From: an uncultured Pelagimonas sp.
GTDB lineage: Bacteria; Pseudomonadota; Alphaproteobacteria; Rhodobacterales; Rhodobacteraceae
DNA length: 64,000 nucleotides
Direction of reading: 5' to 3'
Assembly (NCBI GenBank): GCA_947499735.1
Contig: CANMPP010000001.1
Span: forward strand, 620,001 to 684,000
In this document: piece after piece, positions 4,724 through 22,539 of the stretch
How the letters are laid out: each line of letters starts with the position of its first letter
Position numbering within the stretch: the first letter of the stretch is position 1
Made by a program: the position numbers and the translations under genes
Notes under the pieces: model-generated
Told to the model about the DNA's origin: nothing
Database searches by the model: none
The model's input: the letters and a program-made list of their open reading frames with translations, nothing else

Positions 4724-5371
4724 ATGGCCATTCCCGGAATTCCATCCTATCCGCTACCAGCACAAGACGCGTTGCCAAATTCCCGTGCGCCTTGGGTCTT
4801 CGCGCCTGGGCGTGCCGCCCTGTTGATCCATGATATGCAACGCTATTTTTGTGCGCCCTTTGCACAGGATGACGCCCCATTGCCGGATATTATCCGCAAT
4901 ATCGCATCACTCGCTCACGCAGCCCGTATCTGCAATATTCCTGTCTTTTATACTGCACAAGAAGGGGACCAGTTTAGACCAGATCGCGGATTACAGGCTG
5001 ACCTTTGGGGTCCCGGCATGTCCCGGTGGCCCGAGCATCAGGACATCGTGCCAGAATTGGCACCAACAGAAACAGACATCGTTCTGGTCAAACATCGCTA
5101 TAGCGCATTTCAACGATCTAATCTTGAAACGCTGATGCGCGCGCGCGGGCGGGATCAATTGCTGATTACTGGTGTCTATGCACATATTGGCTGTCTCGCG
5201 ACAGCAGTGGAAGCATTCCAACGCGACATCGAACCTTTTACCATCGCAGATGCGCAAGCAGATTTTGACGCTGACCGTCATACAATGGCGATGAACTGGG
5301 TTGCTGGATGTTGTGGTGCCGTCATTTCAACGGCTGATGTTTTGTCCGCAATGCCTGAGGATTCCGAATGA
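4724..5371 (+). CDS. entB: Isochorismatase (EntB N-terminal domain only)
   Basis: Hydrolyses isochorismate to 2,3-dihydro-2,3-dihydroxybenzoate and pyruvate. The 215 residues align along the isochorismatase half of EntB: start MAIPGIPSYPLP, LLIHDMQRYF with the catalytic Asp at 37, YTAQ, WGPGM, LVKHRYSAF with the catalytic Lys at 123, and GVYAHIGC. The C-terminal aryl carrier domain of EntB is absent; a separate carrier gene lies at 6796 to 7047. This is a complete single-domain form, not a truncation. The gene follows entC by 14 bp and overlaps entA by 4 bp (ATGA). Confidence 0.95.
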   Translation: MAIPGIPSYPLPAQDALPNSRAPWVFAPGRAALLIHDMQRYFCAPFAQDDAPLPDIIRNIASLAHAARICNIPVFYTAQEGDQFRPDRGLQADLWGPGMSRWPEHQDIVPELAPTETDIVLVKHRYSAFQRSNLETLMRARGRDQLLITGVYAHIGCLATAVEAFQRDIEPFTIADAQADFDADRHTMAMNWVAGCCGAVISTADVLSAMPEDSE

Positions 5372-6144
5372 AGCTAAGCGGATTTGAAGGGCGCAGTGCC
5401 TTTGTCACAGGCGCTGCGGGCGGAATAGGTTTAGAAACAGTCGCGTTACTACACGCTGCCGGCGCAAGTGTTGTGGCCACGGATACAGCGGATGCGTTGA
5501 ACGCGTTGCCTGTAGATGATCGCCCCAACGCTGCGGCTTGGATCCCATGCGATTTACGCGATGCGACTGCCGTTGCTGCGATGGTCGAACAAGCAGATAC
5601 TGTTGCTGCACCGATTAGCCTAGCTGTTCATGCGGCGGGGGTTGTATCCGTTGGATCGCTTTTGGAAACTTCATCTGAGGAATGGCACCGCGTTCAAGAT
5701 ATCAATCTGAATGGCAGTTTTCACGTGATGCATTGCTTGGGCAGTCGCTTGATCAAACAGCCCGATGCGGCCCTTGTCGTTATTAGTTCGAACGCCGCGA
5801 CGATTCCGCGTTTAAATATGGGGCCTTATTGTGCGTCAAAGGCAGCTCTGACGATGCTAACACGGTGTTTCGGGCTGGAATTGGCGCAACATGGGGTGCG
5901 GTGCAATGTCATCGCGCCCGGATCCACGCTGACGCCAATGCAAACCGGGATGTGGCAGGATGACCAAGACCCCAAACGCGTGATTGCGGGTAATTTGGAA
6001 AGTTACCGGACAGGTATTCCATTGGGCAAACTGGCAACGCCGAAAGATATCGCAGAGGCGGCGCTATTCTTGCTTTCAGATCAGGCAGGTCACATCACTA
6101 TGGCTGACTTGTATATCGATGGCGGTGCGACATTACGCGGGTAA
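5368..6144 (+). CDS. entA: 2,3-dihydro-2,3-dihydroxybenzoate dehydrogenase
   Basis: A 258-residue short-chain dehydrogenase that oxidises dihydro-DHB to 2,3-dihydroxybenzoate with NAD+. The dinucleotide motif TGAAGGIG is at residues 14 to 21. The catalytic Ser is in VVISSNAA near 140, and Tyr154 and Lys158 lie in PYCASKAAL. The C-terminal IDGGATLRG is typical. Position directly after entB with a 4 bp overlap makes the EntA assignment firm. The 3' end overlaps the convergent entD gene by 55 bp, so no terminator separates them. Confidence 0.95.
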   Translation: MKLSGFEGRSAFVTGAAGGIGLETVALLHAAGASVVATDTADALNALPVDDRPNAAAWIPCDLRDATAVAAMVEQADTVAAPISLAVHAAGVVSVGSLLETSSEEWHRVQDINLNGSFHVMHCLGSRLIKQPDAALVVISSNAATIPRLNMGPYCASKAALTMLTRCFGLELAQHGVRCNVIAPGSTLTPMQTGMWQDDQDPKRVIAGNLESYRTGIPLGKLATPKDIAEAALFLLSDQAGHITMADLYIDGGATLRG

Positions 6145-6815
6145 TTTGGTAAAGTGACGGCTGTTAGAACCCCGTCTTTGCACGGGATCAGCAGCGGTGT
6201 TATCGCGCGACCTGCGCACCAGTCAGGTGTCAGGTCGCGTGTTAATCTTAGATATGGGGCAGGGTGCGCATCAACGCACAGCTCTGCCGCGTCGAAATCA
6301 AAGCGTTTGTCGATCAGTGGGCTAAGCGCTTTAAATAGGCTTTCCTTGGCAGAAAAGATCAAAGCGATCCATAACGGATCCCCCTTGAAATGCGCGCGTT
6401 CATAAGGTGTCAAAGCCACGGGCGCGATGTCTTTCGCGACCTCAACGCTTAAATGTTGTTCTATATCAATGCCAAGGCCGCACCAATTCCCAGCATGTCC
6501 GGCAATTGCCACAGAACGCCCATTGCAGTGGCTAATCGACCCTCTCAACCCGTTTGGCCAAATTGGCGCACCGTCCATGCCGCGCGCGACATTGCAGGGC
6601 TTGCCGGATAGGCGCGCACCCACCTTTGCCGCTGCAATCCGTCCGGCCTTATGCTGTGCGGCCCTGCGTTCCCGCCCGGTTTCAACATCGTTGTTAGATT
6701 TCCAACCGGCAGATTGCATGTGGATACAGCAAGTTGGCAGCGAAGTGCGGAGATGGCCAATGGCCATCTTCCAGTCTGCCAGTACATGCGGTGCTTTAAC
6801 TGGCGGCTTTTGCAT
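6090..6815 (-). CDS. entD: 4'-phosphopantetheinyl transferase (EntD-like)
   Basis: Moves phosphopantetheine from CoA to the carrier proteins of the siderophore assembly line. Motifs of the EntD/Sfp superfamily are clear: GSISHC near residue 92, GLGIDIE near 115 (metal-binding Asp and Glu) and FSAKESLFKAL near 154. I take the ATG at 6815; a TTG lies one codon upstream and an internal ATG at 6767 is possible. The start lies inside the 3' end of the carrier gene, suggesting translational coupling. The 3' end runs 55 bp into entA on the other strand. Confidence 0.9.
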   Translation of the reverse strand: MQKPPVKAPHVLADWKMAIGHLRTSLPTCCIHMQSAGWKSNNDVETGRERRAAQHKAGRIAAAKVGARLSGKPCNVARGMDGAPIWPNGLRGSISHCNGRSVAIAGHAGNWCGLGIDIEQHLSVEVAKDIAPVALTPYERAHFKGDPLWIALIFSAKESLFKALSPLIDKRFDFDAAELCVDAHPAPYLRLTRDLTPDWCAGRAITPLLIPCKDGVLTAVTLPNYPRNVAPPSIYKSAIVM

Positions 6816-7047
6816 CAATCAAAGCGGACCATGCATTCAGTGTTGGATCTTTTGCCAAATCTTCAAAGCTAACGATAATCCCGCGTTCTTTTAGTTCCCC
6901 TGCAAATTTCATCACGCGCAAAGAATCTAAGCCATAGAAAATTAAGCTTTCGGCTGGATCGATTGGGCCTTCGTCTTCGATTAATTGCGATACTCGCGTT
7001 TCCAACCACTCGAAATCGGTTGCGTCGACAGTCTTCATTTCGGTCAC
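6796..7047 (-). CDS. Stand-alone aryl carrier protein
   Basis: An 83-residue carrier protein that should hold 2,3-dihydroxybenzoyl as a thioester. The attachment motif GLDSLRVM places the phosphopantetheine serine at residue 42, between short helices typical of carrier domains. I use the GTG start at 7047 because GAAGGAAA sits 5 nt upstream; an ATG three codons on has poorer spacing. It lies between entE and entD on the minus strand and supplies the carrier that EntB lacks here. In vibriobactin synthesis this role is played by the carrier half of VibB. Confidence 0.9.
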   Translation of the reverse strand: MTEMKTVDATDFEWLETRVSQLIEDEGPIDPAESLIFYGLDSLRVMKFAGELKERGIIVSFEDLAKDPTLNAWSALIDAKAAS

Positions 7048-7061
7048 ATCAATTTCCTTCG

Positions 7062-8669
7062 TTATTGAGTTTCTAAGATAGTTTCGCGCAACGCACGTTT
7101 GTTGATTTTGCCCACAGCCGTTAGCGGCATGGCTTCGACAAAAACGATACGGTCTGGCAGCTTGTATTCGGCAATGCCCTGATCAATCAGATGGCGACGT
7201 AGGGCGACGGGACGTACTGGATTTCGCGCAACCAATACAGCGCAGCCGCGTTCGCCTAGCCGAGCATCCGGTTGCGCGATCAGCGCAGCTTCTAGAACCT
7301 CTGGATGGCGCAGCAGCAAGCTTTCGACTTCTTCAGCCGCGATCTTTTCACCACCTCGGTTGATCTGATCCTTCACGCGGCCCACAACGCGCAAATACCC
7401 GTCCTGATCACGCTGTACGAGATCGCCACTGTGATAGAACCCATCATTGTCAAAGGCTGCTTGATTATGGGTGGGGCTGCGGAAATAACCGCGGAACGTA
7501 TAAGGCCCGCGCACCCAAAGCTGCCCTGTTTCGCCGTCGGCGCAATCATGCCCGTCCGCGTCACGCACCCGAACGTCGTCATCTTCGCAGATCGGGCGAC
7601 CTTGGGTCGTGAAAATACGTTCGCTGTTGTCATCAAGCCGCGTGTAATTCACCAAACCTTCCGCCATGCCAAAGACTTGCTGCAATTTGCATCCCAATAC
7701 TTCGGGAACCTGCCGAGCAAGGGTTTCAGCAAAGCTGGCACCGCCCACCTGAACCAGTTCCAAACTATCAGGTGGTTGCAAACCTGCACGCACGGCCTCT
7801 AGCCACAAACCCACAGCCGAAGGAACCAATGCTGCCATCGTTACCCCGTGCTTTTCAATCAGATCAAAGCACAAATTGGGTTCAGGGCTATCTGCCATGA
7901 CAACAGTTCCGCCAGCAAAGAAAACACCCAGGGCGCCGGGTGAGCTTAGTACGTAATTATGTGGGGCAGGCAGTGCGCATAGAAATCGCGTTTGGGGGGT
8001 TAGTTCGCAAATTTCGGCACTGGCACGCACAGAATAATCGTAATCATTGTGCGTGCGCGGGATCAGTTTTGGCGTGCCGGTACTGCCGCCTGATAATTGA
8101 TAAAAGGCAACATCATGAGCCGCGATATCTGGCCAATTTCCGGCGGGCGCATCATCAGCCAGCAACCATTGCCGTAAATCTGAGTGAGGATCCGGATCAT
8201 CAAGGAACAGGCATAGTTCGATCCCTTGCGAAATTTCGCGCAATTCCCCTGTAAAGGTGTCATCCTTGAACAACGGGTGGGCCCGCGATCCAATGAGCAG
8301 CTTGGGTTGCAATTGTTGAACATAGGATCGTAGCTCTAATGCGCGGTGGTTGAATAGCGCATTGACGGGGCGGATCCCGGCCTTAAGCAAGGCGAAAAAC
8401 GTGATGTAGAATTCTGCGCAATTCGGCAGCTGAACCACCGCATGATCCCCCTGTGCAATCCCACTGTCCAAAAGCCGAATCGCCAAGGCTGAGGACGCTT
8501 TATCAAGATCTCTATAGCTGATCGCACGTGTTCCGCATTGGATCGCGCAGGAGTCTGGGCGTGCCTCAGCTTGCACACGTAAGCCGTGTGTTATGGGTTT
8601 ATCGATCCAATATCCCTTTTGTCGATAAAGTTGGATTAAATCGTTTGGCCAAGGGGTGAAATCAGTCAT
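7062..8669 (-). CDS. entE: 2,3-dihydroxybenzoate-AMP ligase (EntE/DhbE)
   Basis: A 535-residue adenylating enzyme that activates 2,3-dihydroxybenzoate and loads it onto the aryl carrier. Seen are the ATP-binding loop LSGGSTGTPKLIPRTHNDY (near residue 195), FGMAEG, YHSGDLV, the GRVKDQINRGGEKI hinge and a C-terminal lysine in VGKINKRALR. The start MTDFTPWP and the early GYWIDKP match the EntE/DhbE family (fuller N terminus than luciferase-type ligases). It leads the minus-strand operon entE - carrier - entD and is divergent from the NRPS gene. Confidence 0.95.
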   Translation of the reverse strand: MTDFTPWPNDLIQLYRQKGYWIDKPITHGLRVQAEARPDSCAIQCGTRAISYRDLDKASSALAIRLLDSGIAQGDHAVVQLPNCAEFYITFFALLKAGIRPVNALFNHRALELRSYVQQLQPKLLIGSRAHPLFKDDTFTGELREISQGIELCLFLDDPDPHSDLRQWLLADDAPAGNWPDIAAHDVAFYQLSGGSTGTPKLIPRTHNDYDYSVRASAEICELTPQTRFLCALPAPHNYVLSSPGALGVFFAGGTVVMADSPEPNLCFDLIEKHGVTMAALVPSAVGLWLEAVRAGLQPPDSLELVQVGGASFAETLARQVPEVLGCKLQQVFGMAEGLVNYTRLDDNSERIFTTQGRPICEDDDVRVRDADGHDCADGETGQLWVRGPYTFRGYFRSPTHNQAAFDNDGFYHSGDLVQRDQDGYLRVVGRVKDQINRGGEKIAAEEVESLLLRHPEVLEAALIAQPDARLGERGCAVLVARNPVRPVALRRHLIDQGIAEYKLPDRIVFVEAMPLTAVGKINKRALRETILETQ

Positions 8670-8873: not shown

Positions 8874-11800
8874 ATGTATGAAATAACCGCAATGCAGGCT
8901 GCCTGCTGGGTCAATGGACACGCTAAAGATGAAGGTTCAGCCGAGCCTTCTGCGCATTTATACGTCGAACTGGATAGTCGTGAAGGTCAGGCACTAATAG
9001 ACGCAGACAGGCTGGCACGTGCGGTTTTGGCACTGTTGCAGCGTCACAATCACCTGCGGCTGACCTTTGATGATCAAGGGGTCCCTTCGATTGCCGACCT
9101 TTCTTCGCAGCACCGTTTGTATTTCAATGATTTGAGGGATCTGGATCCTGCAGGTTGTGAAGAGAAACTGAGACACATTCGCGCGTCCAAAACGCACCAA
9201 CGTTTAGCCCTTAGGGACGGTGTTGCTTGCGAATTCACGTTAAGCCAGTTGCCTGGCGGAAAGCATCGCCTGCACATAGATTTGGATATGATCGCGTCAG
9301 ATCCATCATGTTTTCCGTATGTGATGGCTGACTTGGCGGTGCTGTACGAACTAGATGCAAAAGCGCTGGATCGCGCCGCTGGTGACTTTGTGAAGCACCG
9401 TCAGGCCTATCGGGCAGACCCTGCGCGATCACATCAGGAAGCTATTGCACGCACATGGTGGAAAGATCAGATTGCTGACCTGCCGCCCGCACCAAACCTG
9501 CCTGCACCAGAACATCCCCAAACGCACGACACCGCACAAAGCACGCGTTTTGCTGCAACGCTGACTGATGCGGAAACAGCTGCATTTTTGAAATATGCAC
9601 GCGCAATTCGTGCGACTCCTTCCAGCCTAGCGTTGTCATTGTTTGCAAAAGAATTAGGACACGCCACTGGCCAATCAGCATTGCGTTTGACGGTTCCGAT
9701 GTTTGAACCGCAGAACATGTCGGAACAAGGGCCCACAATTGGAGATTTTTCCAATTTCACCTTGATGGGTGTGGACCACATTGATGCAACACTGGATGTG
9801 CTGACGGAACATGTGCAGACACGGTTGGTTCAGGCCATTTCGCACAGCGCAAGGCCCGGCCCGCAGCTGATGCGTGATTTGGCGCGCCATTTGGGATCTG
9901 TGCCGAGTGCACCGGTGGTCTTTACTGCAGGGTTTGACCACCCGCTGGGTTCGATACTGCCAGATCTTGCGCGCAATCTATTTGGTGATCTCGTTTGGAG
10001 CGTGTCACAAGGCCCTGGCGTTGCGCTTGATGCCCAAATTGCAAAGCTTGGTGATCAGATTTTGATCAATTGGGATATCAGGTTGGATCTGGTGGATGAA
10101 CAATGGATCAAAGCCCTATTTGATCGCTTTGTCACGCGCCTGCGCACGCTGCAACAGGACGTGGATAATATCGATCACAGCAAGCCGCTTTCGCAGTTGC
10201 AATGCGCGTATATCCTTGGGCGGAAAACAACGCTTCCGCTAGGTGGTGTGGCAATGCAAGAGGTTCGACTGTTTCGCGGAACCTTTGATTTGGAACGGCT
10301 GCAGGATCGTTTGGATGTTCTTTGTACGCAGCACCCGGCACTTCGCACGCGTATCAATGAACGTGATCAACGCATGTATTATGTACCAAAAGATACGGCT
10401 CCGCTTGATCTATACGACCTAAGTGACGATCAAAATGCACCAGAACAATTGGCGGCGTTTTGGGACAGTTTCAAAAACGAGCTGTGCGCGCTTGACGGGC
10501 CTTTGTGGCAGGTTTGCGCAGTCAAAATGCCAGCAGGTCAAGAAGATGCAGTGGCTGTGCGGTTTGATGCTTTAGCCCTAGATGGGCCAGCAATCGCAAA
10601 AATCTGTGCAGATATGTTCGTATCAAAACCAATGATCGAAGAGCCTGCACAAATATCCGAGCCCCCGGTGTCCGCTGCACAGCGCAATGTGGACGCGGCC
10701 TATTGGGCGCAAGCGTTACAAGATATCGATGCAGGGCCAAACCTGCCTTGGGTAACACCATTGCACCAGATCAGAACATCACGTTACCGCCGAGAGTCAC
10801 AACGGATTACCGCACAACAGCGGCGTGAATTGCAGCGTGCAGCGGCAAAAAGTAAGCTGTTCTTAAACAGTCTGCTGAGCTCTGTTGTGCTGGAAATTCT
10901 GGCGCGGTTTACCCCAGACATGCGGTTATATGTTGGCTTGCCAACCGCGCCTGCGCTGGACAATGCTGACCTTGGCAACCGGGCATCCTTTATCGTCGTC
11001 GACCATGATGCCGGTATAAGCACACCCGCTGAACGCGCAGCTGTTTTACAGTCAAAAACGATGGCGGGCTTGTCCCATATGGAGCATTCTGGTGTGGATC
11101 TGGCCCGGCAATTGCTGTCTCAGACCAAGGAAGCGCTGGCTTTGCCTATCGTCTTGACGAACGGGTTAAACTGGGCGCGACCTGATCCCGATGTATCTAT
11201 GTATGAAGTGGCCGGTCAGACGCAAACGCCACAAGTGGCGCTGGATATTCGTTTGATGAACGGGTCGGATGGCGGGATTGAAATCGCAGCTGACTATGCT
11301 GAATCTGCGTTAGAGGCCGACACTGTGCACGCCATGTTGATGGCAATAACCGCTGCGTTGAAAAACATCTATGATCTAGGCTCTTTGGATTTGCCGACGC
11401 CTTTGGTGGCATCCGCCAGCCCTGAACAATATCCCAATGTGACAAACCTTGATCCCTATTTGCTAAAAATCGCTGACAACCTTAGGGCAGGGCAGGGGAC
11501 CGCGCTGATCCAAGGCACGACGCATATCAGCTACGGCGCTTTGCGCGATAAGATCGAAGCAATCCTTGGTTGGTTTGCCCAGAATGGAATTCACAGCGGT
11601 GCGGTGCTGGCCATTCATCTGCCGCGCGGAATTGATCATATCGCGCTCCAACTTGCGGCAGCTCTTTCGGGGGTTATCTGGGTGCCTTTGGACGTGTCCG
11701 CGCCCGTGGAACGTCGTGACTATCAACTGGCGCGCTGCGCGCCGTCTCTTGTCGTATCACAAGACGATATTGATCTTTGGCGCTGCATCAAACCTGATCT

Positions 11801-13214
11801 ATTGCTGAACGCAGATCGTCAAGATTTACCCGAGGATACAGTCCTTTCTGAACGCAGCCTCAATCGTGATGCGGGATATTATTTGTTCACCTCGGGGACG
11901 ACCGGTGCGCCAAAATGCGTTGTGCTGAACAATCGGGCGACATCGAATGTGTTAGATCAAACGCTGCACGCATGGAACGTTAGCCCCAAAGATGTTGTGA
12001 TGTCGGTCACGCCCCTGCATCACGATATGTCTGTGTTTGATATTTTTGGCACTTTGAGTGCAGGTGCGACACTGGTCATGCCCGATCTGGGCCAAGACAA
12101 AGATGCGATGGAATGGGCGCAAATTGTGGCGCGTCATAACGTAACCCTCTGGGTATCTGTTCCTGCCATTCTTGAAATGCTTTTGGATAGCGCGCGACCA
12201 GAGCAATTAGGATCGCTGCGTCTGATCGCCCAAGGTGGTGATTACATCAAACCCGCTCAAATCGCGCTTCTGCGGGACATATGTGCGCGCGCAAAATTGG
12301 TTTCGCTAGGCGGTCCGACCGAGACCACGATTTGGAGCATTTGGCATGACATCGGGTCTGAAACCGGCGCCGTGCCTTATGGGCGTGCGCTAAAGGGTGC
12401 TGAATATCTGATCTGTAACCCCGCGGGCGAGCCGTGCCCAACCGGCGTTGTTGGGCGCATACATACTGCGGGTGATTGTTTGTCTCTGGGATATCTGGAC
12501 GATGGCAACCTGGTCTCGACGGGTTTTGTGTCCTTGCCTGATCACAATGGCAATCCTCGTCGCGCATTCCGCACGGGTGATTTGGGAAAATGGGCCCCAG
12601 ATGGCACGATAACCTTCGCTGGACGTGTGGGCGGCTATGTCAAAGTGCGCGGGGTGCGCGTGTCGCTAGGGGATATTGAAAGCACCCTTGGTCAACATGA
12701 AAGCCTGCGCCAGTCTATGGTTGTTGATCTTGTTTCTGACGACGGGCGTGACACGTCTCTTGCTGCCCTATGCGTCAGTCATGAAAACACCCAGCCTAGC
12801 ACAGCAGACCTACGTAAATATATGCGTGAGAAGCTGCCTCAATCACATTTACCAGACCGCTTTATATTTGTGCCATCCCTCCCGTTGTCTGCAAATGGAA
12901 AACCGGACAAAGCGGCCGCGCGCCGTTTGGCGGAGAAAACATCGACAATGCCGCCAGCACCGAAACCAAACGCGTCAGACCAACAGCTGACGACGCAAGT
13001 TTTGAACATCTATCTGGAACATCTGGGCGCGCATGGGGATGCAGATAGCATCTTGCTGGATCTTGGATTGATGCCAAACCATCTGGCGCCCATCGCAACG
13101 GCACTAAACTCCCGACTTGGTTGCAAATTAAACCCAATGCAATTGATCCGCGCACGCACCGCACGGCAAGCTGCCGCGATTGTTGCGCAACAGCCTGTAC
13201 TTTCGGCCACTTGA
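8874..13214 (+). CDS. NRPS with domains Cy-Cy-A and a degenerate carrier (VibF N-terminal part)
   Basis: About 1446 residues. A first cyclization-type domain (about 1 to 435) has Asp138 and Asp143 of the D-x4-D-x2-S motif, with Cys146 in place of Ser. A second (about 440 to 855) opens with QLQCAYILGR...LPLGG and has Asp565 and Asp570, with Ala in place of Ser. The adenylation domain (about 870 to 1355) has FTSGTTGAPK at 1004, GGPTETT at 1147, RTGDL and NGKPDK near 1341. Residues 1366 to 1435 are carrier-like, but the attachment site reads DLGLMPNHL and has no serine. Tandem Cy-Cy-A is the opening of VibF, which activates threonine and forms methyloxazoline. The ATG at 8874 follows GGGTG; a TTG two codons earlier is possible. 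Confidence 0.92.
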   Translation: MYEITAMQAACWVNGHAKDEGSAEPSAHLYVELDSREGQALIDADRLARAVLALLQRHNHLRLTFDDQGVPSIADLSSQHRLYFNDLRDLDPAGCEEKLRHIRASKTHQRLALRDGVACEFTLSQLPGGKHRLHIDLDMIASDPSCFPYVMADLAVLYELDAKALDRAAGDFVKHRQAYRADPARSHQEAIARTWWKDQIADLPPAPNLPAPEHPQTHDTAQSTRFAATLTDAETAAFLKYARAIRATPSSLALSLFAKELGHATGQSALRLTVPMFEPQNMSEQGPTIGDFSNFTLMGVDHIDATLDVLTEHVQTRLVQAISHSARPGPQLMRDLARHLGSVPSAPVVFTAGFDHPLGSILPDLARNLFGDLVWSVSQGPGVALDAQIAKLGDQILINWDIRLDLVDEQWIKALFDRFVTRLRTLQQDVDNIDHSKPLSQLQCAYILGRKTTLPLGGVAMQEVRLFRGTFDLERLQDRLDVLCTQHPALRTRINERDQRMYYVPKDTAPLDLYDLSDDQNAPEQLAAFWDSFKNELCALDGPLWQVCAVKMPAGQEDAVAVRFDALALDGPAIAKICADMFVSKPMIEEPAQISEPPVSAAQRNVDAAYWAQALQDIDAGPNLPWVTPLHQIRTSRYRRESQRITAQQRRELQRAAAKSKLFLNSLLSSVVLEILARFTPDMRLYVGLPTAPALDNADLGNRASFIVVDHDAGISTPAERAAVLQSKTMAGLSHMEHSGVDLARQLLSQTKEALALPIVLTNGLNWARPDPDVSMYEVAGQTQTPQVALDIRLMNGSDGGIEIAADYAESALEADTVHAMLMAITAALKNIYDLGSLDLPTPLVASASPEQYPNVTNLDPYLLKIADNLRAGQGTALIQGTTHISYGALRDKIEAILGWFAQNGIHSGAVLAIHLPRGIDHIALQLAAALSGVIWVPLDVSAPVERRDYQLARCAPSLVVSQDDIDLWRCIKPDLLLNADRQDLPEDTVLSERSLNRDAGYYLFTSGTTGAPKCVVLNNRATSNVLDQTLHAWNVSPKDVVMSVTPLHHDMSVFDIFGTLSAGATLVMPDLGQDKDAMEWAQIVARHNVTLWVSVPAILEMLLDSARPEQLGSLRLIAQGGDYIKPAQIALLRDICARAKLVSLGGPTETTIWSIWHDIGSETGAVPYGRALKGAEYLICNPAGEPCPTGVVGRIHTAGDCLSLGYLDDGNLVSTGFVSLPDHNGNPRRAFRTGDLGKWAPDGTITFAGRVGGYVKVRGVRVSLGDIESTLGQHESLRQSMVVDLVSDDGRDTSLAALCVSHENTQPSTADLRKYMREKLPQSHLPDRFIFVPSLPLSANGKPDKAAARRLAEKTSTMPPAPKPNASDQQLTTQVLNIYLEHLGAHGDADSILLDLGLMPNHLAPIATALNSRLGCKLNPMQLIRARTARQAAAIVAQQPVLSAT

Positions 13215-13229
13215 CTCGAAGGAAATTCA

Positions 13230-14624
13230 ATGTCTGCGTTCCAATCTTCGGCTCCATGGCTCGATCTGACACTTGCTCAGTTCGATTTCTGGGAAGAATT
13301 CCGTCTGCATCCTGACCGCCCGTTATCGACCATCGCCCATTGCACCGTTATCACCGGTCCTTTGGATGAAGCCGCACTCATCGGAGCGCTGAAACAGGTC
13401 GCGCGAGAAACTGACGTGTTTGCCTTGCAGTTTCAGGATGGTCCCGATGGACCACGCCAGAAAATTGACCCTGCGCGGATCCCAACCGTGCAGTATCTTG
13501 ACCTGTCTTCTGAAACGGACCCGGACAGGGCTGGACGTAAGATGATGGAAGCGGACATCGCAAAACCGATTGATCTGGAACAGGATCAAATTTCTGCGCT
13601 TTGGTTGTTGAAAATAGGGCCAGCCCGTTGGTTGTGGTATCTTAGAGGGCATCACATCATGCTAGATGGTTACGGTGTTTCGTTGGTCGAACGTCGCACT
13701 GCCGCCCTTTATGCAGAGGCCCTTGGTAAACCCGCAGACTTGGGTGCATTCGAACCCTTTCATCTCTATCTGGATGAAGAAACGGCGTACCGTGAAGGCC
13801 CCCACCATGCACGCAACAACCAGCATTGGCAGCAGGTCCTGAAAGACGGCCCGCCGCTGACGATTTTGGAAAAGAATGACGAGGATTATGGCTGCTCTTC
13901 GCTCAGTTCGGCACCTGATGTGTCCCCCCAAGTACCAGCTGCGTTACGTGAGGCCGCTGCCACCTATGACATCGGCTGGCCTGATCTGTTAACCCTTCTT
14001 ACAGCCGCCTGGCTGGCACGGGATTTGAAGACGGGTGATAAAGGCCTGCCAATTTGGCTGCCTTATATGAGCCGATTTGGAAGCGTAAGCGCCCAAATCC
14101 CAGCACTTGTGGTCAATATACTCCCGCTCATTGTGACAAAAATTCCAAACGAAACACTGGGCGATTACCTGTCCCGAATGGGCAAAGTCTTGCGTCAATT
14201 GCGCCGTCATGGCCGTTACCGTGTTGAACAACTTGCTGCGGATCATGGGCTAAAAGAAGGGCAACGGTTTTTCTTTTCGCCTCTGATAAATGTCTTGCCC
14301 TTTGATCCCCCTCAATTTGTCGGATGCAGCGCCAGGCGTGAAGTTCTGGCTGCGGGGCCGGGGGATGGTTTCAACCTGACATGGGGCGCGGCATCTGATG
14401 CCAGTGACCTCGCCCTTTGGATTGATGCCGATCCAGCATCACAAGACGAATTTACAGCCGGCAATGCGGATCTTGTTCCCTTTGTGATCCGGGCCTGCGC
14501 CGCAGGTGCCATAACCGTGCCACTTGATGACCTGTTACAGGCCAGCACTGCAGCCCAATCGATGACGGTTTGCAATAAACCTACACCAATGAGGCCGATC
14601 ACTGGCCGCCTAGAGGACACATGA
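13230..14624 (+). CDS. Stand-alone condensation enzyme (VibH-like amide synthase)
   Basis: A free-standing NRPS condensation domain of 464 residues, near the size of VibH (about 440). The catalytic motif is HHIMLDG at residues 141 to 147. VibH joins dihydroxybenzoyl from a carrier protein to a primary amine of norspermidine, and this gene sits in the same company (EntE, free aryl carrier, Cy-Cy-A NRPS). I infer acylation of a polyamine, most likely spermidine in an alphaproteobacterium. A ribosome site GAAGGAAA precedes the ATG, 16 bp after the NRPS stop, and the 3' end overlaps fepB by 4 bp. Confidence 0.88.
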   Translation: MSAFQSSAPWLDLTLAQFDFWEEFRLHPDRPLSTIAHCTVITGPLDEAALIGALKQVARETDVFALQFQDGPDGPRQKIDPARIPTVQYLDLSSETDPDRAGRKMMEADIAKPIDLEQDQISALWLLKIGPARWLWYLRGHHIMLDGYGVSLVERRTAALYAEALGKPADLGAFEPFHLYLDEETAYREGPHHARNNQHWQQVLKDGPPLTILEKNDEDYGCSSLSSAPDVSPQVPAALREAAATYDIGWPDLLTLLTAAWLARDLKTGDKGLPIWLPYMSRFGSVSAQIPALVVNILPLIVTKIPNETLGDYLSRMGKVLRQLRRHGRYRVEQLAADHGLKEGQRFFFSPLINVLPFDPPQFVGCSARREVLAAGPGDGFNLTWGAASDASDLALWIDADPASQDEFTAGNADLVPFVIRACAAGAITVPLDDLLQASTAAQSMTVCNKPTPMRPITGRLEDT

Positions 14625-15565
14625 AACGCCGTTCCTTTCTAACCGCCAGCACCTGTGCCGCAGCTACATTTACTTTGGGATCATCCAGCATGGCCGAAAC
14701 CGGTTGGCCGCGCAGCGTTCCAAATGCAGATGGCCGTGAAACCATTTTGACGGCGCCGCCAAAGCGCATAGTTTCAACATCCGTCACCCTTGCAGGTAGT
14801 CTATTGGCAATTGGCGCACCGCTTATTGCCACAGCTACAACTGTACGCGGTGATTTTTTCGGACAATGGGAACATGTTGCGGAAGAACAGGGTGTTGAAA
14901 AACTTTGGCGCGCAGGTTCTGTCGATCTAGAAGCGGTCTGGTCGTACGCTCCTGACCTCATCCTCGTTTCAGCAACGGGTGCAGATTCAGTTGTGGCACA
15001 ACGTGCGGCACTAGAAGAAATCGCGCCAGTTCTGGTGATTGATTATGGCGCGCTTGATTGGACGGGCCTTGCGCAATTACTGGGTCAAGCGATCGGTCAC
15101 GAAACCCAAGCTCAGGCCATGCTGACAGATTTCGAGACGCAATTGCAAACAATGCGCACCCGGTTGCAGCTGCCCGAAGGTCTGACCAATATCGTCAGTT
15201 ACAATGGCCCCGGCGCACCCAATCCCGTTGCGCGGGCGAATGGTGTGCATGGTCGGTTACTTTCAGCGCTGGGCTTTTCTTTAGAAGATCCGCCCATAAA
15301 CTGGCAAAGCGCAAATGTGCCACCGGCGGCGGATTTCATTCGTTCGGCCTATGAACATCTAACAGAGCTGACAGCACAAACGACCTTTGTTTTGTCTGGA
15401 ACAGATGAAGACGCGCAGCGCCTGTTGGACGACCCAATCCTGAGCAATCTTCCCTCAGTGCAACTGGGTCAGGTTTATGGGTTGGGGGCAAATTCGTTCA
15501 GGATCGATTATTACAGCGCCTCAGAAATCGTGTCCAACATTGCGCAACGGTTTGGCCGGAGCTAA
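14621..15565 (+). CDS. fepB: Periplasmic ferric-catecholate binding protein
   Basis: This 314-residue solute-binding protein delivers a ferric siderophore to the inner-membrane permease. The N terminus MKRRSFLTASTC carries a twin-arginine-like signal. The mature part tracks FepB closely: WPRSVPNADGRETI, PPKRIVSTSVTLAGSLLAIGAP, DLILVSATGADS and near the end VYGLGANSFRIDYYSA. It overlaps the VibH-like gene by 4 bp, so uptake and synthesis genes are translationally linked. Likely ligand: the product of this cluster. Confidence 0.92.
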   Translation: MKRRSFLTASTCAAATFTLGSSSMAETGWPRSVPNADGRETILTAPPKRIVSTSVTLAGSLLAIGAPLIATATTVRGDFFGQWEHVAEEQGVEKLWRAGSVDLEAVWSYAPDLILVSATGADSVVAQRAALEEIAPVLVIDYGALDWTGLAQLLGQAIGHETQAQAMLTDFETQLQTMRTRLQLPEGLTNIVSYNGPGAPNPVARANGVHGRLLSALGFSLEDPPINWQSANVPPAADFIRSAYEHLTELTAQTTFVLSGTDEDAQRLLDDPILSNLPSVQLGQVYGLGANSFRIDYYSASEIVSNIAQRFGRS

Positions 15566-15568
15566 CGC

Positions 15569-16579
15569 ATGGCACCAAACCTTTCGCCCACACAACGCCT
15601 GTTGCTTGGCGGGGCAATTTTATTTGTTGTGGCGACCTCATTCCTGGGCCTGTTTATTGGTCCACGCACGATCCCCATTGAAACCACATTTGCAGCGTTG
15701 CGGAATTTTGACGCCAGCGATAGCGCGCATCTTTTGGTGCGCGAGCAACGTTTGCCACGCGTATTTTTGGGTTTGATTGTTGGCGGCGCATTAGGTGCAG
15801 CTGGGGGTGTGATGCAAACACTGACGCGCAATCCTTTGGCAGATCCCGGCCTGCTTGGTGTTTCTGCAGGTGCCACCCTTGCAATTGTGTGCCTGATCGC
15901 GGCAACGGGCCAGATAAATATCGGCGCGTCGCTTTGGGCTGGTGTGTGTGGCGCGGGTCTTGGCGGCATTGCCGTCTTTTTGCTGGCAGGCATGACGCAG
16001 GCCCATGATCCGGTCCGGTTGGTGTTGGCGGGGGCGGCTTTATCAATCGTGTTGATGACCTTAACTCGCGTGATTACCGTCAATGCGGAAGCACAAGTGT
16101 TCGACCAGTTCCGCCACTGGGCTGTTGGTTCATTGCAGGGACGTAGCTGGAGCGTGTTGTGGCCCAGCCTATGGTTGACGTTTGTCGGGGGCTTAGCTGC
16201 ATTCGCATTGTCCCGACCCCTTGATGCTTTGGCATTGGGGCAGGAGTTTGGGCACAGCCTTGGGGCGGATCCACGCAGAGTTTGGTTTGCAGCGGCCATT
16301 GTGATTGTGGTGCTGTGTGGGACGGCGACGGCGGCTGCGGGCCCGATCAGTTTTGTCGGTTTGGCCGCACCACATTTAGCGCGCCATATCGCCGGGTCGG
16401 CACATCGCGCACTTTTGCCGCTGTCCATGCTGATCGGCGCGGCATTGGTGAGCATCGCAGATCTTTTGGGACGGATCATTGAACCTGCTTCGCCCATCGA
16501 TGTCGGCATTATGTCTGCGTTGATTGGGGGACCTGTTTTTGTCGTTTTGGCACGCCGTTTGCGGACCAGCGGGTTATGA
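15569..16579 (+). CDS. fepD: Ferric siderophore ABC permease, FepD type
   Basis: A 336-residue FecCD-family permease with about nine to ten membrane helices. Family marks are LRLPRV-like EQRLPRVFLGLIVGGALGAAGGVMQTLTRNPLADPGLLG, then GPISFVGLAAPHLAR and a C-terminal glycine-rich helix. It is the first of two permease subunits, 3 bp after fepB, and overlaps fepG by 4 bp. Works with FepG and the ATPase at 19927. Confidence 0.92.
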   Translation: MAPNLSPTQRLLLGGAILFVVATSFLGLFIGPRTIPIETTFAALRNFDASDSAHLLVREQRLPRVFLGLIVGGALGAAGGVMQTLTRNPLADPGLLGVSAGATLAIVCLIAATGQINIGASLWAGVCGAGLGGIAVFLLAGMTQAHDPVRLVLAGAALSIVLMTLTRVITVNAEAQVFDQFRHWAVGSLQGRSWSVLWPSLWLTFVGGLAAFALSRPLDALALGQEFGHSLGADPRRVWFAAAIVIVVLCGTATAAAGPISFVGLAAPHLARHIAGSAHRALLPLSMLIGAALVSIADLLGRIIEPASPIDVGIMSALIGGPVFVVLARRLRTSGL

Positions 16580-17610
16580 GCGCGTCGTCACGTTTCGTTC
16601 TGCGTTGGGGGCGTTGGTCCCTTGTTTGCGAGCGACGATCGCTTTGGCTAAACGTCACTTTTTTCGCGCTGATCCTGCTGGGATCAACGGTGTCGTTGAT
16701 GCTGGGGCGGATGCAAATTGGCGCGGATGCAATATGGCAAACCTTGAACGGTCAGGCACCTACGCGTGCTATTGAACATATTCTGATCGACATTCGCTTG
16801 CCGCGATTATTGGTTACGATTGGGGCAGGTGCCGCGCTTGGTGCTTCGGGCGCGGTGTTTCAAAGCATCTCGCGCAATCCTCTGGGCTCACCGGATGTGA
16901 TCGGATTTACCGCAGGCGCTGCCACCGGCGCGCTGATCTGGATCATTGTGTTTGGTGGTTCAGGGGCCAATGTTGTGCTGGCATCTTTGATGGGCGCACT
17001 TTTGACCGGAGGTGTCGTTTATTTCTTAGCCCGAAAAGATGGCCATGTCAGTGCATACCGTTTGGTCCTGACGGGGATTGGCATTGGTGCCGTTTTGCAT
17101 GCAATCAACGCGCTTTTACTTGTTAAAGGACATATCGACCTTGCGATTTCAGCCAACCTTTGGCTTGCAGGATCTGTTGATGGTCGCGATTGGGGCCATG
17201 TTTGGCCACTTTGGCTGGGGCTAACTGTGTTGATTGGCCCGATGCTAATTGGCATGCGCCCACTTGGCTGGATGGAAATGGGGGACGATCTTGCCGGCCC
17301 CCTTGGTGTTCCTGTTGAACAGGTTCGGCGCTGGATGTTGCTTGCGGCGCTGGTATTGGCCGGGCTGGCCACCAGCGCGACAGGGCCCATTGCATTTGTC
17401 GCATTGGCAGCCCCCCAACTTGCGCGCAGATTAACCCGTGCACCGACACAGCCGTTGATTGGGGCGGCTTTATTTGGGGCTTGTTTGTTGCTGGGCGCAG
17501 ACCTGCTGACACGCATTGCACCTTTTGATTGGACCATGCCAATCGGCCAAGTCACCGGCATCATCGGAGGCCTTTATCTGAGCTGGTTGTTGTTAGGTAA
17601 CCGGTTGTGA
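16576..17610 (+). CDS. fepG: Ferric siderophore ABC permease, FepG type
   Basis: The partner permease of 344 residues. Seen are IRLPRLLVTIGAGAALGAS, FQSISRNPLGSPDVIGF and GPIAFVALAAPQLAR, the segments that contact the ATPase in BtuCD-type importers. The unusually long N terminus before the first membrane helix (about 30 residues) is as in FepG. It overlaps fepD by 4 bp and is followed by a 132 bp gap before the second NRPS gene. Confidence 0.92.
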   Translation: MSASSRFVLRWGRWSLVCERRSLWLNVTFFALILLGSTVSLMLGRMQIGADAIWQTLNGQAPTRAIEHILIDIRLPRLLVTIGAGAALGASGAVFQSISRNPLGSPDVIGFTAGAATGALIWIIVFGGSGANVVLASLMGALLTGGVVYFLARKDGHVSAYRLVLTGIGIGAVLHAINALLLVKGHIDLAISANLWLAGSVDGRDWGHVWPLWLGLTVLIGPMLIGMRPLGWMEMGDDLAGPLGVPVEQVRRWMLLAALVLAGLATSATGPIAFVALAAPQLARRLTRAPTQPLIGAALFGACLLLGADLLTRIAPFDWTMPIGQVTGIIGGLYLSWLLLGNRL

Positions 17611-17745
17611 AATTGTGCGTTTTATTTCCGACAAAAATACTTGACATTGCATCGGATGTGACCTTGGTTGCAGGCCTCAGGTCTTCCCTCTTTGGCGAGG
17701 GTTCCCAGCTCTCAAAAACGTTCCCAGAACCAGTAGGATCTCGTG

Positions 17746-19893
17746 ATGACCGAGCATAATCCGCATTCCAACAAGCAACTCAGCGCGCGTGCGGCAACCC
17801 CGCAAGAAGCCCAGATATGGCTGGAACATCAGCAAAGCGAAACCGGTGTCGCACCGATTGTTGAAATCCTAGAACTGCCCGCTGGAACAGATCCAGGGAC
17901 TGTTGCGGCCAGCTTTGTTCAAATGGGCAATGACACACCAGAACTGATAAGATGCTATCAGTTTGATGAAACCGGTGAATTGCTGGTTTATCCCGGACAA
18001 ACATCCGCGCCGTTACATATTCGCTGGGTACAGAATGTATCGGACATCGAAAACATGGCGCTTGATCTGGCGTCGGAACCTTGGGATTTGGCGGAACGTG
18101 GCCCAGTAAGATTGGCCATCCTGTTGGGAAGTAGCACATCGCATCTCGCACTAATTCGCCACCCGATTGCGGTAGATCTACCCAATACTGAATCTTTGTT
18201 CGCTGCACTTGTGCCTCGTTCTAAAAATCAGGCAACGGAAATAGCGCCAAGCACGGATCCAACAGATCGGACTGCGCAAATTATTCTGGATGAATTCCGC
18301 CTTGCCTTAGATGCGCCAGACATGACGGCCGATTGTGATTTCTTTGATTTCGGCGGACATTCTTTGATTGCGACACGCGTGATCGGCCGTCTTGCCGCAC
18401 GTCATGGCATTTCATTGAAGTTCAACGATTTGTTTTCACATACGACGGCAGCCACACTTGCGCCGCTTGCCGAAACCGAAACGGGCCTCATTGACCAGCA
18501 AGCGGGCGATTGGGCTGCCGTGACACCTGGGACATTGCCCGCGCCAGTGGAAACAAGCAGCCGAACACCTTTGTCGCATGCACAGGCCTCTTTGTGGAAA
18601 ATATACTCTGCTCTCGGATTTGGTCCGACATTCAACATCCCCTTTGCATTGCGGTTTCTCGATCCAGTAGATGAAACCGTTTTTGCTGCGGCCTTTCGTG
18701 ATATTCTGGAGCGCCATTCTGCCTTGCGCAGCCGTTTCATCAGCCAAGGCAGCGATATCGTTCAAGACTGCATGCCCATGTCAGAGGTCGATCAGCAGCA
18801 ATGGTTTTGGCATTCAGAAGGAATTCAAGACATAGCGCCGATCCTCGCAGAAGAAGCGGCGTATGATTTTGATCTCGCGCAGGAATTGCCCATTCGGTTG
18901 CGCTTTGTGCGCGATTCCCAAGGGCAGGTGCTATCCTTCCTGTTCCACCACATTGTGCTGGATGAATGGTCGGTGAACTTGATGATGGATGATCTTGCAT
19001 TTGCATACGCCGCTCGTAATAGCGGCAGGGCACCCGTCTGGCCCCAGCCCATCGCACCGTTCCATGATTTTGCCCGCAAGCAGGCCGAGGCAGGGTTTGA
19101 TCAGAAAGCCCTAGATTATTGGGTCGATGCGCTAAAGGATGCATCCCCACCCAAACCTATTCGTGCGAATGCGGCGGCACCATTGCCATCGGCTACCGAT
19201 GCACATGTTGCTGATGGCGGTTGGACAGAGATCATGTTGGACCGCGCGGTTTCAGATGCGCTATATGCCTTGTCAAAAGAATGTTCCGCATCTTTGTTCA
19301 ACACTGTTTACGCAGCGATTTCATGCGCTTTGCAACGTCTTGCAGGTTTGGATGATCTCACAATCGGGACATCTGCATCTGGACGCACGGACCCGGATTA
19401 TTTTGATACGGTGGGGTATTTCACAACTGTAACCGCCCATTCATTGCGCGCGCCGGGCCACATGACCCCTCGGGGATTGATTGCCACTGTGCGTGACATG
19501 ATAAACGGGTCATTGCCGCATTGTGAAATTCCAATTGATTTGGTTGAAGATGCCCTTTCGGGTGGCACAGCCCCTTTGGGCGAACATATGTTCGAGGTCT
19601 TCATCCAAATCCATGCACAAAACAAATTGAACGGCACATTCGAAGGCCCGCATGGCCCGATCAGGTTCCGACAAGTCGATCCCGAAAAGAGCGAATCCGT
19701 GCTTGGTTTGCAATTTGAGGTCGTCGAAGATGTGATCGAGGGGGCAAAACGACTGCGTATGATGATGAGCTATCGGAGTGCACATTATTCCGCAGATGAT
19801 GTGACAGCGCTTGTTGCGGCTGTCAAAAACACCTGCGCAGCCTTTGCCAGAACCAATGCTGTTGACCGTACTCTTTCAGAGCTATTGCCCTGA
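17746..19893 (+). CDS. NRPS with relic condensation lobe, carrier domain and condensation domain (VibF C-terminal part)
   Basis: About 715 residues. Residues 20 to 150 resemble only the N-terminal lobe of a condensation domain (QIWLEHQQ, PWDLAERGPVRLAILL, HLALIRHPIAVDL). The HHxxxD motif is altered to HP at 139 and 140, and the second lobe is missing. A normal carrier domain follows with FGGHSLIATRV, Ser206 being the attachment site. Then comes a full condensation domain with HHIVLDEWS (His401, His402, Asp406). This order matches the C1-PCP-C2 end of VibF, where C1 is reported to be dispensable. It should receive threonine from the A domain of the other polypeptide in trans. ATG 17746 follows AGGA; a GTG lies one codon earlier. 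Confidence 0.88.
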   Translation: MTEHNPHSNKQLSARAATPQEAQIWLEHQQSETGVAPIVEILELPAGTDPGTVAASFVQMGNDTPELIRCYQFDETGELLVYPGQTSAPLHIRWVQNVSDIENMALDLASEPWDLAERGPVRLAILLGSSTSHLALIRHPIAVDLPNTESLFAALVPRSKNQATEIAPSTDPTDRTAQIILDEFRLALDAPDMTADCDFFDFGGHSLIATRVIGRLAARHGISLKFNDLFSHTTAATLAPLAETETGLIDQQAGDWAAVTPGTLPAPVETSSRTPLSHAQASLWKIYSALGFGPTFNIPFALRFLDPVDETVFAAAFRDILERHSALRSRFISQGSDIVQDCMPMSEVDQQQWFWHSEGIQDIAPILAEEAAYDFDLAQELPIRLRFVRDSQGQVLSFLFHHIVLDEWSVNLMMDDLAFAYAARNSGRAPVWPQPIAPFHDFARKQAEAGFDQKALDYWVDALKDASPPKPIRANAAAPLPSATDAHVADGGWTEIMLDRAVSDALYALSKECSASLFNTVYAAISCALQRLAGLDDLTIGTSASGRTDPDYFDTVGYFTTVTAHSLRAPGHMTPRGLIATVRDMINGSLPHCEIPIDLVEDALSGGTAPLGEHMFEVFIQIHAQNKLNGTFEGPHGPIRFRQVDPEKSESVLGLQFEVVEDVIEGAKRLRMMMSYRSAHYSADDVTALVAAVKNTCAAFARTNAVDRTLSELLP

Positions 19894-19926: not shown

Positions 19927-20745
19927 GTGACCACCACTTCTGCCCCAAGCCAGCCATCCGAGACACGATCAACATCACGCCTAAAGGCCCAAGGGCTGTC
20001 GCTGAATTATCCTGGTAAGGCCGTCAGTTCTGGTATGTCATTGGAAATCAAAGATGGCACTTTTTCCGTTATTATTGGCCCCAATGGATGTGGGAAATCG
20101 ACCTTGTTGCGCGGTTTATGCAACCTATTGCCACCCAGTGCGGGTCACGTTCTTTTGGATGGTCGGGACATTGCGCGCCTTCCATCCCGCGAATTGGCCA
20201 AGCAAGTTGGGCTGCTACCACAAAGTGCACAAGCCCCCTCTGGGATCACCGTGGCGGATTTGGTGTCGCGTGGGCGTTACCCACATCAAGGACCTTTTCG
20301 CCAATATAGTGTCGATGATGAGCGCATCGTTGCACGGTCTATGAAGGCCGCTGGCATTCAAGACTTAGCGCATCAAAGTGTTGAGTCTCTATCGGGGGGG
20401 CAACGTCAACGCGTTTGGGTTGCATTGGTCCTTGCACAAGAAACCCCAATTCTGTTGCTGGATGAACCAACAACTTATCTAGATATCGCGCATCAGCTGG
20501 AATTGCTGTCCCTTCTGGGCAATCTCAATCGGGAAGGTGGGCGTACAATTGTGGCTGTGTTGCACGATCTTAATCAGGCCTGTCGGTATGCTGATCATTT
20601 GATTGTTATGAAGGATGGTGGCGTCGTCACCGAAGGATCGCCTGCTGACCTTATGACATCGGAATTGCTGCAACAGGTCTTTGGACTGGACGCTATTATC
20701 ATTGACGATCCGATCAGTCACACCCCGTTGATCGTGCCTAAGTGA
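19927..20745 (+). CDS. fepC: Ferric siderophore ABC transporter ATPase
   Basis: A 272-residue ATPase for the FepBDG importer. Walker A is GPNGCGKST, the Q-loop region PQSAQAPSG, the signature LSGGQRQRVW and Walker B ILLLDEPTTYLD, followed by the switch His in VLHDLNQA. This is the FepC/FecE subfamily. The start is GTG at 19927 with AGAGG 8 nt upstream; no in-frame ATG precedes the first conserved block. Its stop codon directly abuts the stop codon of the convergent transporter gene (TGA then TCA), leaving no room for a terminator. Confidence 0.93.
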   Translation: MTTTSAPSQPSETRSTSRLKAQGLSLNYPGKAVSSGMSLEIKDGTFSVIIGPNGCGKSTLLRGLCNLLPPSAGHVLLDGRDIARLPSRELAKQVGLLPQSAQAPSGITVADLVSRGRYPHQGPFRQYSVDDERIVARSMKAAGIQDLAHQSVESLSGGQRQRVWVALVLAQETPILLLDEPTTYLDIAHQLELLSLLGNLNREGGRTIVAVLHDLNQACRYADHLIVMKDGGVVTEGSPADLMTSELLQQVFGLDAIIIDDPISHTPLIVPK

Positions 20746-22539
20746 TCATTGCGCCACTGACCACTTTTTCACGGCCCCCTGTGCAGCCCACATGCGGGCA
20801 TAACGGCCTGTTTCGGCGTGCAGATCGGTGTGTTTTCCTGACTGAACCAGGGACCCGTCCTCAATCACCAGAATCTGATCAGCGCCAACAATTGTGGACA
20901 AACGATGCGCTATCACAATGACGGTTTTGCTTGCGATTAAGGCATCAAGTGCACGTTGGACGGCAAGTTCGCTTTCAGTATCAAGCGCCGCGGTGGGTTC
21001 ATCCAGAATGATGATTGGCGCATCCTTTAGCAAAGCCCGCGCAATCGAAATACGCTGACGTTCCCCACCAGACAAGCGTCCTCCGATTTCCCCCAATGGC
21101 GTTTGCCACCCGTCTGGCAAACGTTCGATAAAATCCAAACACTGTGCAGCCCTAGCCGCTGCGCGGACCTCTTCATCGGATGCTTCGGGGCGGCCCATGC
21201 GAATATTCGCAAGCACGCTGTCATTCAGCAGATACACGTCCTGAAACACGACAGACAGCAGGCTGTTTAACTGATCTGCTGGGATGTTACGCAAATCCAC
21301 GCCCCCAATTTTAACGCTACCTTGTTGCGGATCAAAATGTCGCAACAACAATCGGGTCAATGTTGTTTTGCCACAACCCGATGGGCCAACCAGTGCAGTC
21401 AGTGAATGTTCCGGCAAATCAGCGTTAAAGTTGGATATCGCTGTTGTATCGGACTGCGCATAGGCAAAATCGACATTGTCGAACTGAATGCTAAATTCAG
21501 ACGGCATCTGCATCGGATGCGATTGCTGTAGGGGCTTGGTGGCCATCAATGCGCCAATTCGTTCAAGCGCCGCTTCCATAACCTCAAGCATTGCCGTGTA
21601 TAGGATAAACGTCGACAAAGGTTCAGACAGTCGCACAACGATCACAAAAATCGCGGCAAGGGTGGCTGGGTGTAAGCTGCCTGAAACCACCAGCCAGACG
21701 CCGATCCCCAACACGATCACCAAGCCCAGTTCGACGATGCTGGCCACGATAATGTTGGGTTTGGCGCCTTTGCGATGGCCAAAGGCCTGAATCGCTTCAA
21801 GTTTGTGAAATGTTTGGGACAACCGTTCCGCTTTTTCGCCCGCCCGGCCAGCGGCCCGTAAAATCGCAAGACCTTGTGTATATTCCAGCACATCTGCGCT
21901 GGCATCTTGATGTGCCTGACCCAGAATGCGTTTCCCACGTCCCAGCGCGGGACGTCGCCATCGATATAGCGGAACAATCGTTGGGAAAATCAGCAGCAGT
22001 AACAACCCCATACGCCAGTCAAACAAGGCTATACCAAGGGCCGCGCAAAACGGCGTCACGATGGCCGTGAACAGCAGGTTCAAGACCGTCAAGGCGTACA
22101 GCAAGTTTTCATCAACATTGCCGAGCACCATCGAATTCAGCTCGCCGGCACGTTTATTCTGCAGCTGTTCCAATGGAATTTCGCGCAACTTTGCGCCCAA
22201 CTGCCCGCGCAGCCGCCATGTGGCACGCACCATACGGCCATCAAAATCAAATCCTTGGGCAAACCACCGCAAGGCGGATGCGGCGGCCATAAGGGCCGCC
22301 ATCAAGCCGAACCAATATAGTGCATGGCCTATATCAGGGTTGACGATAGCTGCGGTGAACAGGGGGGCGATCACAGCCAATCCAAAACCTTGCAATGCGG
22401 CGGCCAAAATTAATCCCGCCAACGAACGCCGCAACCCTGGGGCCGCTTCCGGCCCCACACTTTGGGCCAGCTGACGGAATGTCGTTAGAAAAGAGGTCGC
22501 GCTTTGCTTGCGCGGCGGCGTATTGGTCTCAGTTGTCAT
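20746..22539 (-). CDS. ABC transporter with fused permease and ATPase, YbtQ/IrtB-like
   Basis: A 597-residue half-transporter: six membrane helices (about residues 35 to 310) then an ATPase with GPSGCGKTT, LSGGERQRISIARALL, IIILDEPTAALD and IAHRLST. It pairs with the next gene, which it overlaps by 4 bp. Heterodimers of this exporter-fold kind in siderophore clusters (YbtPQ, IrtAB) are known to import ferric siderophores or help release their iron, despite the fold. Here it may take up the ferric catecholate or export the free siderophore. Sequence alone does not decide direction. Confidence 0.88.
   Translation of the reverse strand: MTTETNTPPRKQSATSFLTTFRQLAQSVGPEAAPGLRRSLAGLILAAALQGFGLAVIAPLFTAAIVNPDIGHALYWFGLMAALMAAASALRWFAQGFDFDGRMVRATWRLRGQLGAKLREIPLEQLQNKRAGELNSMVLGNVDENLLYALTVLNLLFTAIVTPFCAALGIALFDWRMGLLLLLIFPTIVPLYRWRRPALGRGKRILGQAHQDASADVLEYTQGLAILRAAGRAGEKAERLSQTFHKLEAIQAFGHRKGAKPNIIVASIVELGLVIVLGIGVWLVVSGSLHPATLAAIFVIVVRLSEPLSTFILYTAMLEVMEAALERIGALMATKPLQQSHPMQMPSEFSIQFDNVDFAYAQSDTTAISNFNADLPEHSLTALVGPSGCGKTTLTRLLLRHFDPQQGSVKIGGVDLRNIPADQLNSLLSVVFQDVYLLNDSVLANIRMGRPEASDEEVRAAARAAQCLDFIERLPDGWQTPLGEIGGRLSGGERQRISIARALLKDAPIIILDEPTAALDTESELAVQRALDALIASKTVIVIAHRLSTIVGADQILVIEDGSLVQSGKHTDLHAETGRYARMWAAQGAVKKWSVAQ

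Follow-up and report, generated by a model that had tools for sequence, protein, structure and literature searches.

The stretch of DNA analysed here (the window; 64,000 nucleotides from an uncultured Pelagimonas sp., contig CANMPP010000001.1, positions 620,001 to 684,000 of the forward strand) encodes what we take, with a probability of about 0.88, to be a two-polypeptide VibF-type synthetase within a complete catechol-siderophore cluster, in which threonine would be loaded in trans onto the peptidyl carrier protein (PCP) domain of the second polypeptide. This reading is carried by the domain content and motifs of the two proteins, by the absence of any other fitting carrier from the genome and by the conservation of the two-gene design. 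The initial annotation had proposed that VibF is split here, with two cyclization (Cy) domains and an adenylation (A) domain on one gene, a PCP flanked by a relic of a condensation (C) domain and an intact C domain on another, and four genes in between, one VibH-like and three for transport; domain searches of both proteins and of the intervening genes bore this arrangement out, Pfam recognizing all of it except the relic, which was identified by other means.

The first protein (8868/8874–13214, + strand; 1446 residues counted from the ATG at 8874) corresponds to the N-terminal part of VibF. The open reading frame is real, its start agreeing with the family consensus M..LT.MQAA.W, and Pfam recognizes two Condensation domains and an AMP-binding domain. 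Domain hidden Markov models and invariant aspartate columns place Cy1 at 8874–10169 (motif DMIASD) and Cy2 at 10176–11408 (DALALD); in both, the two aspartates of the DxxxxD motif are intact, and the alignment shows them to be invariant across the family. The specificity pocket of the A domain (11493–12908; Pfam), read off an alignment with EntF, is DMFVAGLIW, which is near those of BasA (threonine; DMFSAGLIW) and the Paracoccus denitrificans enzyme (DMFCAGLIW) and unlike that of AngR (cysteine; DLYNMSMIW). The A domain therefore probably activates threonine; it weighs against this assignment that it is drawn from the pocket, which is one position off BasA, with Val for Ser.

The initial annotation had Cy-Cy-A as the end of this gene; the three domains stood, but the chain continues beyond them, as residues ~1367–1439 (12972–13190, + strand) form a four-helix carrier fold without a serine, here called the pseudo-carrier. 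The sequence GLMPNHL replaces the G.DSL of carriers, with proline (codon 13074–13076) at the serine position, where aryl carrier proteins (ArCPs) have GLDSL. In the AlphaFold2 (AF2) model, which has a moderate mean confidence (pLDDT 73), the domain has four helices, the second of which begins at that proline, and structural comparison groups it with PCPs and acyl carrier proteins (VIA Z 13.2; rmsd 1.1 over 72 residues). The structure predictions used no rows from loci of annotated-record collections. Its descent from a carrier is secure, because 54 of 61 members of the pseudo-carrier family, submitted singly, match PF00550. In 91 copies, retrieved with a model that was itself derived from serine-less sequences, serine never occurs at the phosphopantetheine site; proline stands there in 87, and histidine two residues further on in 86. 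A serine one position after the site is found in 23 of the 91 and is not conserved; the window copy has no serine at or beside the site. The domain has a conserved motif of its own, GL[RL]PxHL...RCRNA, and no normal PCP or ArCP was found in its place among the split Cy-Cy-A chains surveyed. Its dN/dS ratios (0.05–0.51, median about 0.12, 17 close pairs) are similar to those of the rest of the protein; the pseudo-carrier is thus kept by purifying selection and shows no decay. Having no serine, it cannot be loaded.

The second protein (17743/17746–19893, + strand; 715 residues counted from the ATG at 17746), also a real open reading frame, corresponds to the C-terminal part of VibF, and Pfam finds PP-binding and Condensation domains in it. 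It opens with a relic of C1 (17779–18243), consisting of the N-lobe of a condensation domain only and having HPIAVDL for HHxxxDG. Residues 12–166 align with the N-lobe, and not the C-lobe, of the protein's own C2 domain (hhalign 97.1%, E 5e-11), and the AF2 model of the relic, which is confident (pLDDT mostly 80–93), has its elements in the same order as the C2 N-lobe; on these two grounds the identification of a C relic in the initial annotation was sound. A fold search with the whole protein gave little information on the relic, as PCP-C matches filled the results. The PCP (18277–18471; Pfam PP-binding, E 2e-10) has the motif FFDFGGHSL, with the serine at 18361–18363 invariant in all rows of the alignment, and is predicted to be functional. 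C2 (18553–19890; Pfam) has the motif HHIVLDE and matches PCP-C structures with a VIA Z of about 33. The HHxxxDG motif of C1 is lost at all loci examined. Some clades keep the whole length of C1, and others, that of the window among them, have only its N-lobe; full and half labels placed on the tree force at least three changes. In several C1-PCP-C proteins of Vibrio the C domain is preceded by tandem PCPs, three in loci L142 and L146 and two in L141 and L149–L152. A scan for promoters and terminators near the second gene found nothing exceeding chance.

A PF00550 scan of the whole genome returned only four intact carriers: AcpP, an AcpXL-type protein adjoining a ketosynthase and LpxD, an ArCP and the PCP of the second protein. 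Since that PCP is the only plausible threonine carrier in the genome, the A domain very likely loads a carrier on another polypeptide, as the initial annotation had argued. The presence of a carrier fold on the first protein itself, and of a second intact carrier, the ArCP, inside the cluster, could suggest instead that the A domain charges the carrier fold of its own chain or that threonine goes onto the free ArCP. The first of these founders on the proline of the window copy and the serine-less site of all 91 copies. As for the second, the ArCP is required for 2,3-dihydroxybenzoate (DHB), since the isochorismatase here has no ArCP domain and close homologues of the ArCP are fused to isochorismatase. 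On the motif and the genome-wide carrier evidence we rejected both as very improbable; neither the chain's own domain nor another carrier gene was found that could serve the A domain.

The chemistry and product can be proposed by analogy with the VibF, SchF, Pms and Bas systems. The VibE-like ligase would charge the free ArCP with DHB, and the A domain of the first protein would activate what is probably threonine and load it in trans onto the PCP of the second. Following the roles mapped for the domains of VibF, whose parts in condensation, cyclization and release have been reviewed (PMC5577590), Cy2 would join ArCP-bound DHB to the threonyl-S-PCP and Cy1 would cyclize the condensed product to a methyloxazoline; because the PCP lies on the second chain, both Cy domains would have to reach across to it. 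C2 would then transfer the product onto a DHB-polyamine supplied by the VibH-like protein, the product again being assigned by analogy.

The closest counterpart of the window is an uncharacterized plasmid cluster in Rhodovulum sulfidophilum and Rhodovulum sp. MB263, in which, as the suggested check of synteny in related Rhodobacteraceae revealed, the same genes stand in the same order with the split at the same place, and with a free ArCP, a half C1 and a pseudo-carrier; only sequence divergence (56–61% identity; 56% for the first protein and 61% for the second) and the plasmid location differ. Related clusters occur in Loktanella, Yoonia and Falsirhodobacter. A scan of genome contigs with the Cy-Cy alignment gave 80 loci, in Rhodobacteraceae, Rhizobiales, Pseudomonas, Xenorhabdus, Aeromonas, Chromobacterium, Acinetobacter, Vibrio, Serratia and others, among which a two-gene (or three-gene) layout is the rule. 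Both parts are held by 65 loci from alpha-, beta- and gammaproteobacteria, many with the two genes on opposite strands, so the split in the window does not reflect the breakage of a single gene. Nothing was found in favour of an error of sequencing or assembly or of a gene that broke recently, and these were rejected as next to impossible, given also that four intact genes intervene and that gene order is conserved at such divergence. Distribution is patchy, as the Cy-Cy gene was found in one of 394 genomes in a sample of the family taken at one per genus. In Roseibium aggregatum (L025/L030), ~265 kb of plasmid NZ_CP045632.1 separate the Cy and Cy-A genes from the one for C1-PCP-C.

The Vibrio copies of the system are all split in samples of 196 and 227 genomes (largely the same genus sample), and the single-chain V. 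cholerae VibF did not turn up there, two-gene forms alone being found. The only fusion that we recovered is that of P. denitrificans and Paracoccus sp. MA, which has a single origin (100/100) on a long branch of the PCP-C tree. It is nested within the alphaproteobacterial split forms, so the fused form recovered here is derived, and the window represents the common state. The fused P. denitrificans protein has neither the pseudo-carrier nor C1. In Paracoccus sp. MA (L027) the fused synthetase is interrupted within Cy2 and annotated as two genes, perhaps through a frameshift. A Paracoccus metagenome-assembled genome (L043) has the weakest pseudo-carrier (12 bits) and C1 (13 bits) of all loci and is weakly placed beside the fused P. 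denitrificans clade on the same tree; it may be an intermediate.

The initial annotation treated the single chain as the norm, which does not agree with these layouts or with the split forms published for several siderophores (PMC13180887, PMC7962358, PMC12005286, PMC5577590). V. splendidus has two vibF homologues with transport genes between them (PMC13180887). In the serratiochelin/photobactin system of Serratia plymuthica, the VibF homologue is likewise on separate polypeptides (SchF1, SchF2 and SchF3; PMC7962358, PMC5635690), accompanied by a VibH homologue, and threonine is carried in trans by SchF3, which binds it and the disruption of whose gene abolishes serratiochelins (PMC7962358); there are, however, three chains rather than the two found here, and its DHB comes from an enterobactin cluster. 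The SchF-related locus of Serratia sp. PL17 (L108) reads Cy / Cy-A-pseudo-carrier / C1-PCP-C, with a full-length C1. The pseudomonine pair PmsD/PmsG is also split, with threonine loaded in trans onto PmsG (PMC11308372), and Pseudomonas loci of that layout have a Cy-Cy-A-pseudo-carrier chain plus a half C1-PCP-C chain, but this system uses salicylate and N-hydroxyhistamine instead of DHB and a polyamine, and those loci lack VibH. In the acinetobactin (BasD/BasA/BasB) and anguibactin (AngN/AngR/AngM) systems, BasD, BasA and AngN each have this pseudo-carrier at the C-terminus, and BasB and AngM are half C1-PCP-C proteins loaded by BasA (PMC12005286) and AngR (PMC5577590), respectively; these systems differ in having the A domain on a further separate chain and in lacking VibH. 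VibF of V. cholerae has the same catalytic domains and an inactive C1, but all of them are on one chain, in which C1 joins A to the PCP, whereas the window has two genes with four others between. The statement that docking would be needed here and not in VibF was too sharp, as VibF is a dimer whose mutants complement one another in heterodimers and whose inactive C1 serves dimerization (PMC5577590). By its sequence, then, the window synthetase belongs to the VibF-type oxazoline siderophore synthetases, sharing the split layout that is usual among them and not that of the single-chain, six-domain VibF.

Two elements are candidates for pairing the chains, namely the pseudo-carrier at the end of the first and the N-lobe of C1 at the start of the second. 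It is possible, though at somewhat less than an even chance, that the pseudo-carrier serves its own chain, either stabilizing the A or Cy domains or acting as a gate that occupies the carrier site: it terminates Cy-Cy-A, Cy-Cy-only and A-only chains alike, and its rate profile follows that of Cy2 best (partial r 0.27), although the Cy-Cy-A part of the fused P. denitrificans protein has no such domain. We consider more doubtful, and hold only tentatively, the proposal that the chains are joined by docking of the pseudo-carrier to the dead C1 N-lobe, much as a carrier rests against a condensation domain. It is attractive because the two elements sit at a natural module junction. The uniform loss of serine and the conserved motif of the pseudo-carrier would fit such a role, as would its mostly low dN/dS; in the model the motif lies at the start of helix 2, where carriers contact their partners. 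Moreover, C1 has repeatedly lost its C-lobe and yet kept its N-lobe, both elements are absent from the fused P. denitrificans protein, and the part played by the inactive C1 of VibF in dimerization gives a precedent for a role in assembly. Against docking stand the fact that the Paracoccus fusion is a single evolutionary event and that AngR terminates in another kind of dead carrier, and our confidence is kept low because the two domains gave no signal of coevolution. In this mirror-tree analysis of 65 paired loci with partial control, a coarse method that ignores phylogeny, the partial correlation between pseudo-carrier and C1 N-lobe was –0.01, with 161 of 300 permutations as high, a result that is neutral to mildly negative for docking. 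The fuller claim, that an undescribed type of docking pair, made of a serine-less carrier with GL[RL]PxHL and a dead C-domain N-lobe, holds split catechol-oxazoline synthetases together across Proteobacteria and that both halves were dropped on fusion, is slightly less likely again.

The genes around the synthetase make up a complete catechol set. Between its two genes, on the + strand, lie those for the VibH-like stand-alone condensation protein, an amide synthase (13230–14624; Pfam Condensation; its counterpart in the Rhodovulum cluster occupies the equivalent position and is 61% identical), a FepB-like periplasmic siderophore-binding protein (14621–15565; Pfam Peripla_BP_2) and two FecCD permeases (15569–16579 and 16576–17610; Pfam), and after the second follows the ATPase of a siderophore-importing ABC transporter (19927–20745, +; Pfam ABC_tran). 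Upstream are a TonB-dependent siderophore receptor (989–3070, –; Pfam TonB barrel and plug), isochorismate synthase (3360–4709, +; TIGR00543 over cut-off), isochorismatase (4724–5371, +), a VibA/EntA-like 2,3-dihydro-2,3-DHB dehydrogenase (5368–6144, +; best NCBIfam matches DhbA, just below cut-off), an EntD-like phosphopantetheinyl transferase (6090–6818, –; Pfam ACPS and 4PPT_N) and the VibE/EntE 2,3-dihydroxybenzoate-AMP ligase (7062–8669, –; NCBIfam equivalogs over cut-off). The ArCP, which like the pseudo-carrier was not part of the initial annotation, is an 83-residue gene product encoded between the last two (6796–7047, –; GLDSLRVM; PF00550, E 4e-10, from the genome scan). It is ~69% identical to an Agrobacterium ArCP that is fused to isochorismatase; because it stands free here, the isochorismatase has no ArCP domain, and the Pfam Isochorismatase match spans nearly all of its 215 residues. 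The Rhodovulum plasmid tables list no gene in the stretch that holds their ArCP copies. After the cluster come two adjoining ABC half-transporters, each with its membrane domain fused to its ATPase (20746–24395, –), also present beside the Rhodovulum cluster, which possibly serve siderophore export or a YbtPQ-like import. Further on, a gene for a protein that begins with about a dozen successive GGY repeats (28075–29274, +) adjoins a subtilase-like gene (29284–31299).

The split itself is not novel and is ordinary for this enzyme family. The point of interest is a carrier domain that is unable to carry and yet has been retained across alpha-, beta- and gammaproteobacteria. A literature search on inactive, degenerate or vestigial PCPs found nothing relevant, most subscription papers lying outside its reach; the only dead carrier found described is the different case of AngR, with its non-functional PCP (PMC5577590). 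Should the pseudo-carrier serve in docking or gating, it would offer a natural part for joining non-ribosomal peptide synthetase chains and a simple test case, for which the fused P. denitrificans form, having no pseudo-carrier, would be a ready-made control.

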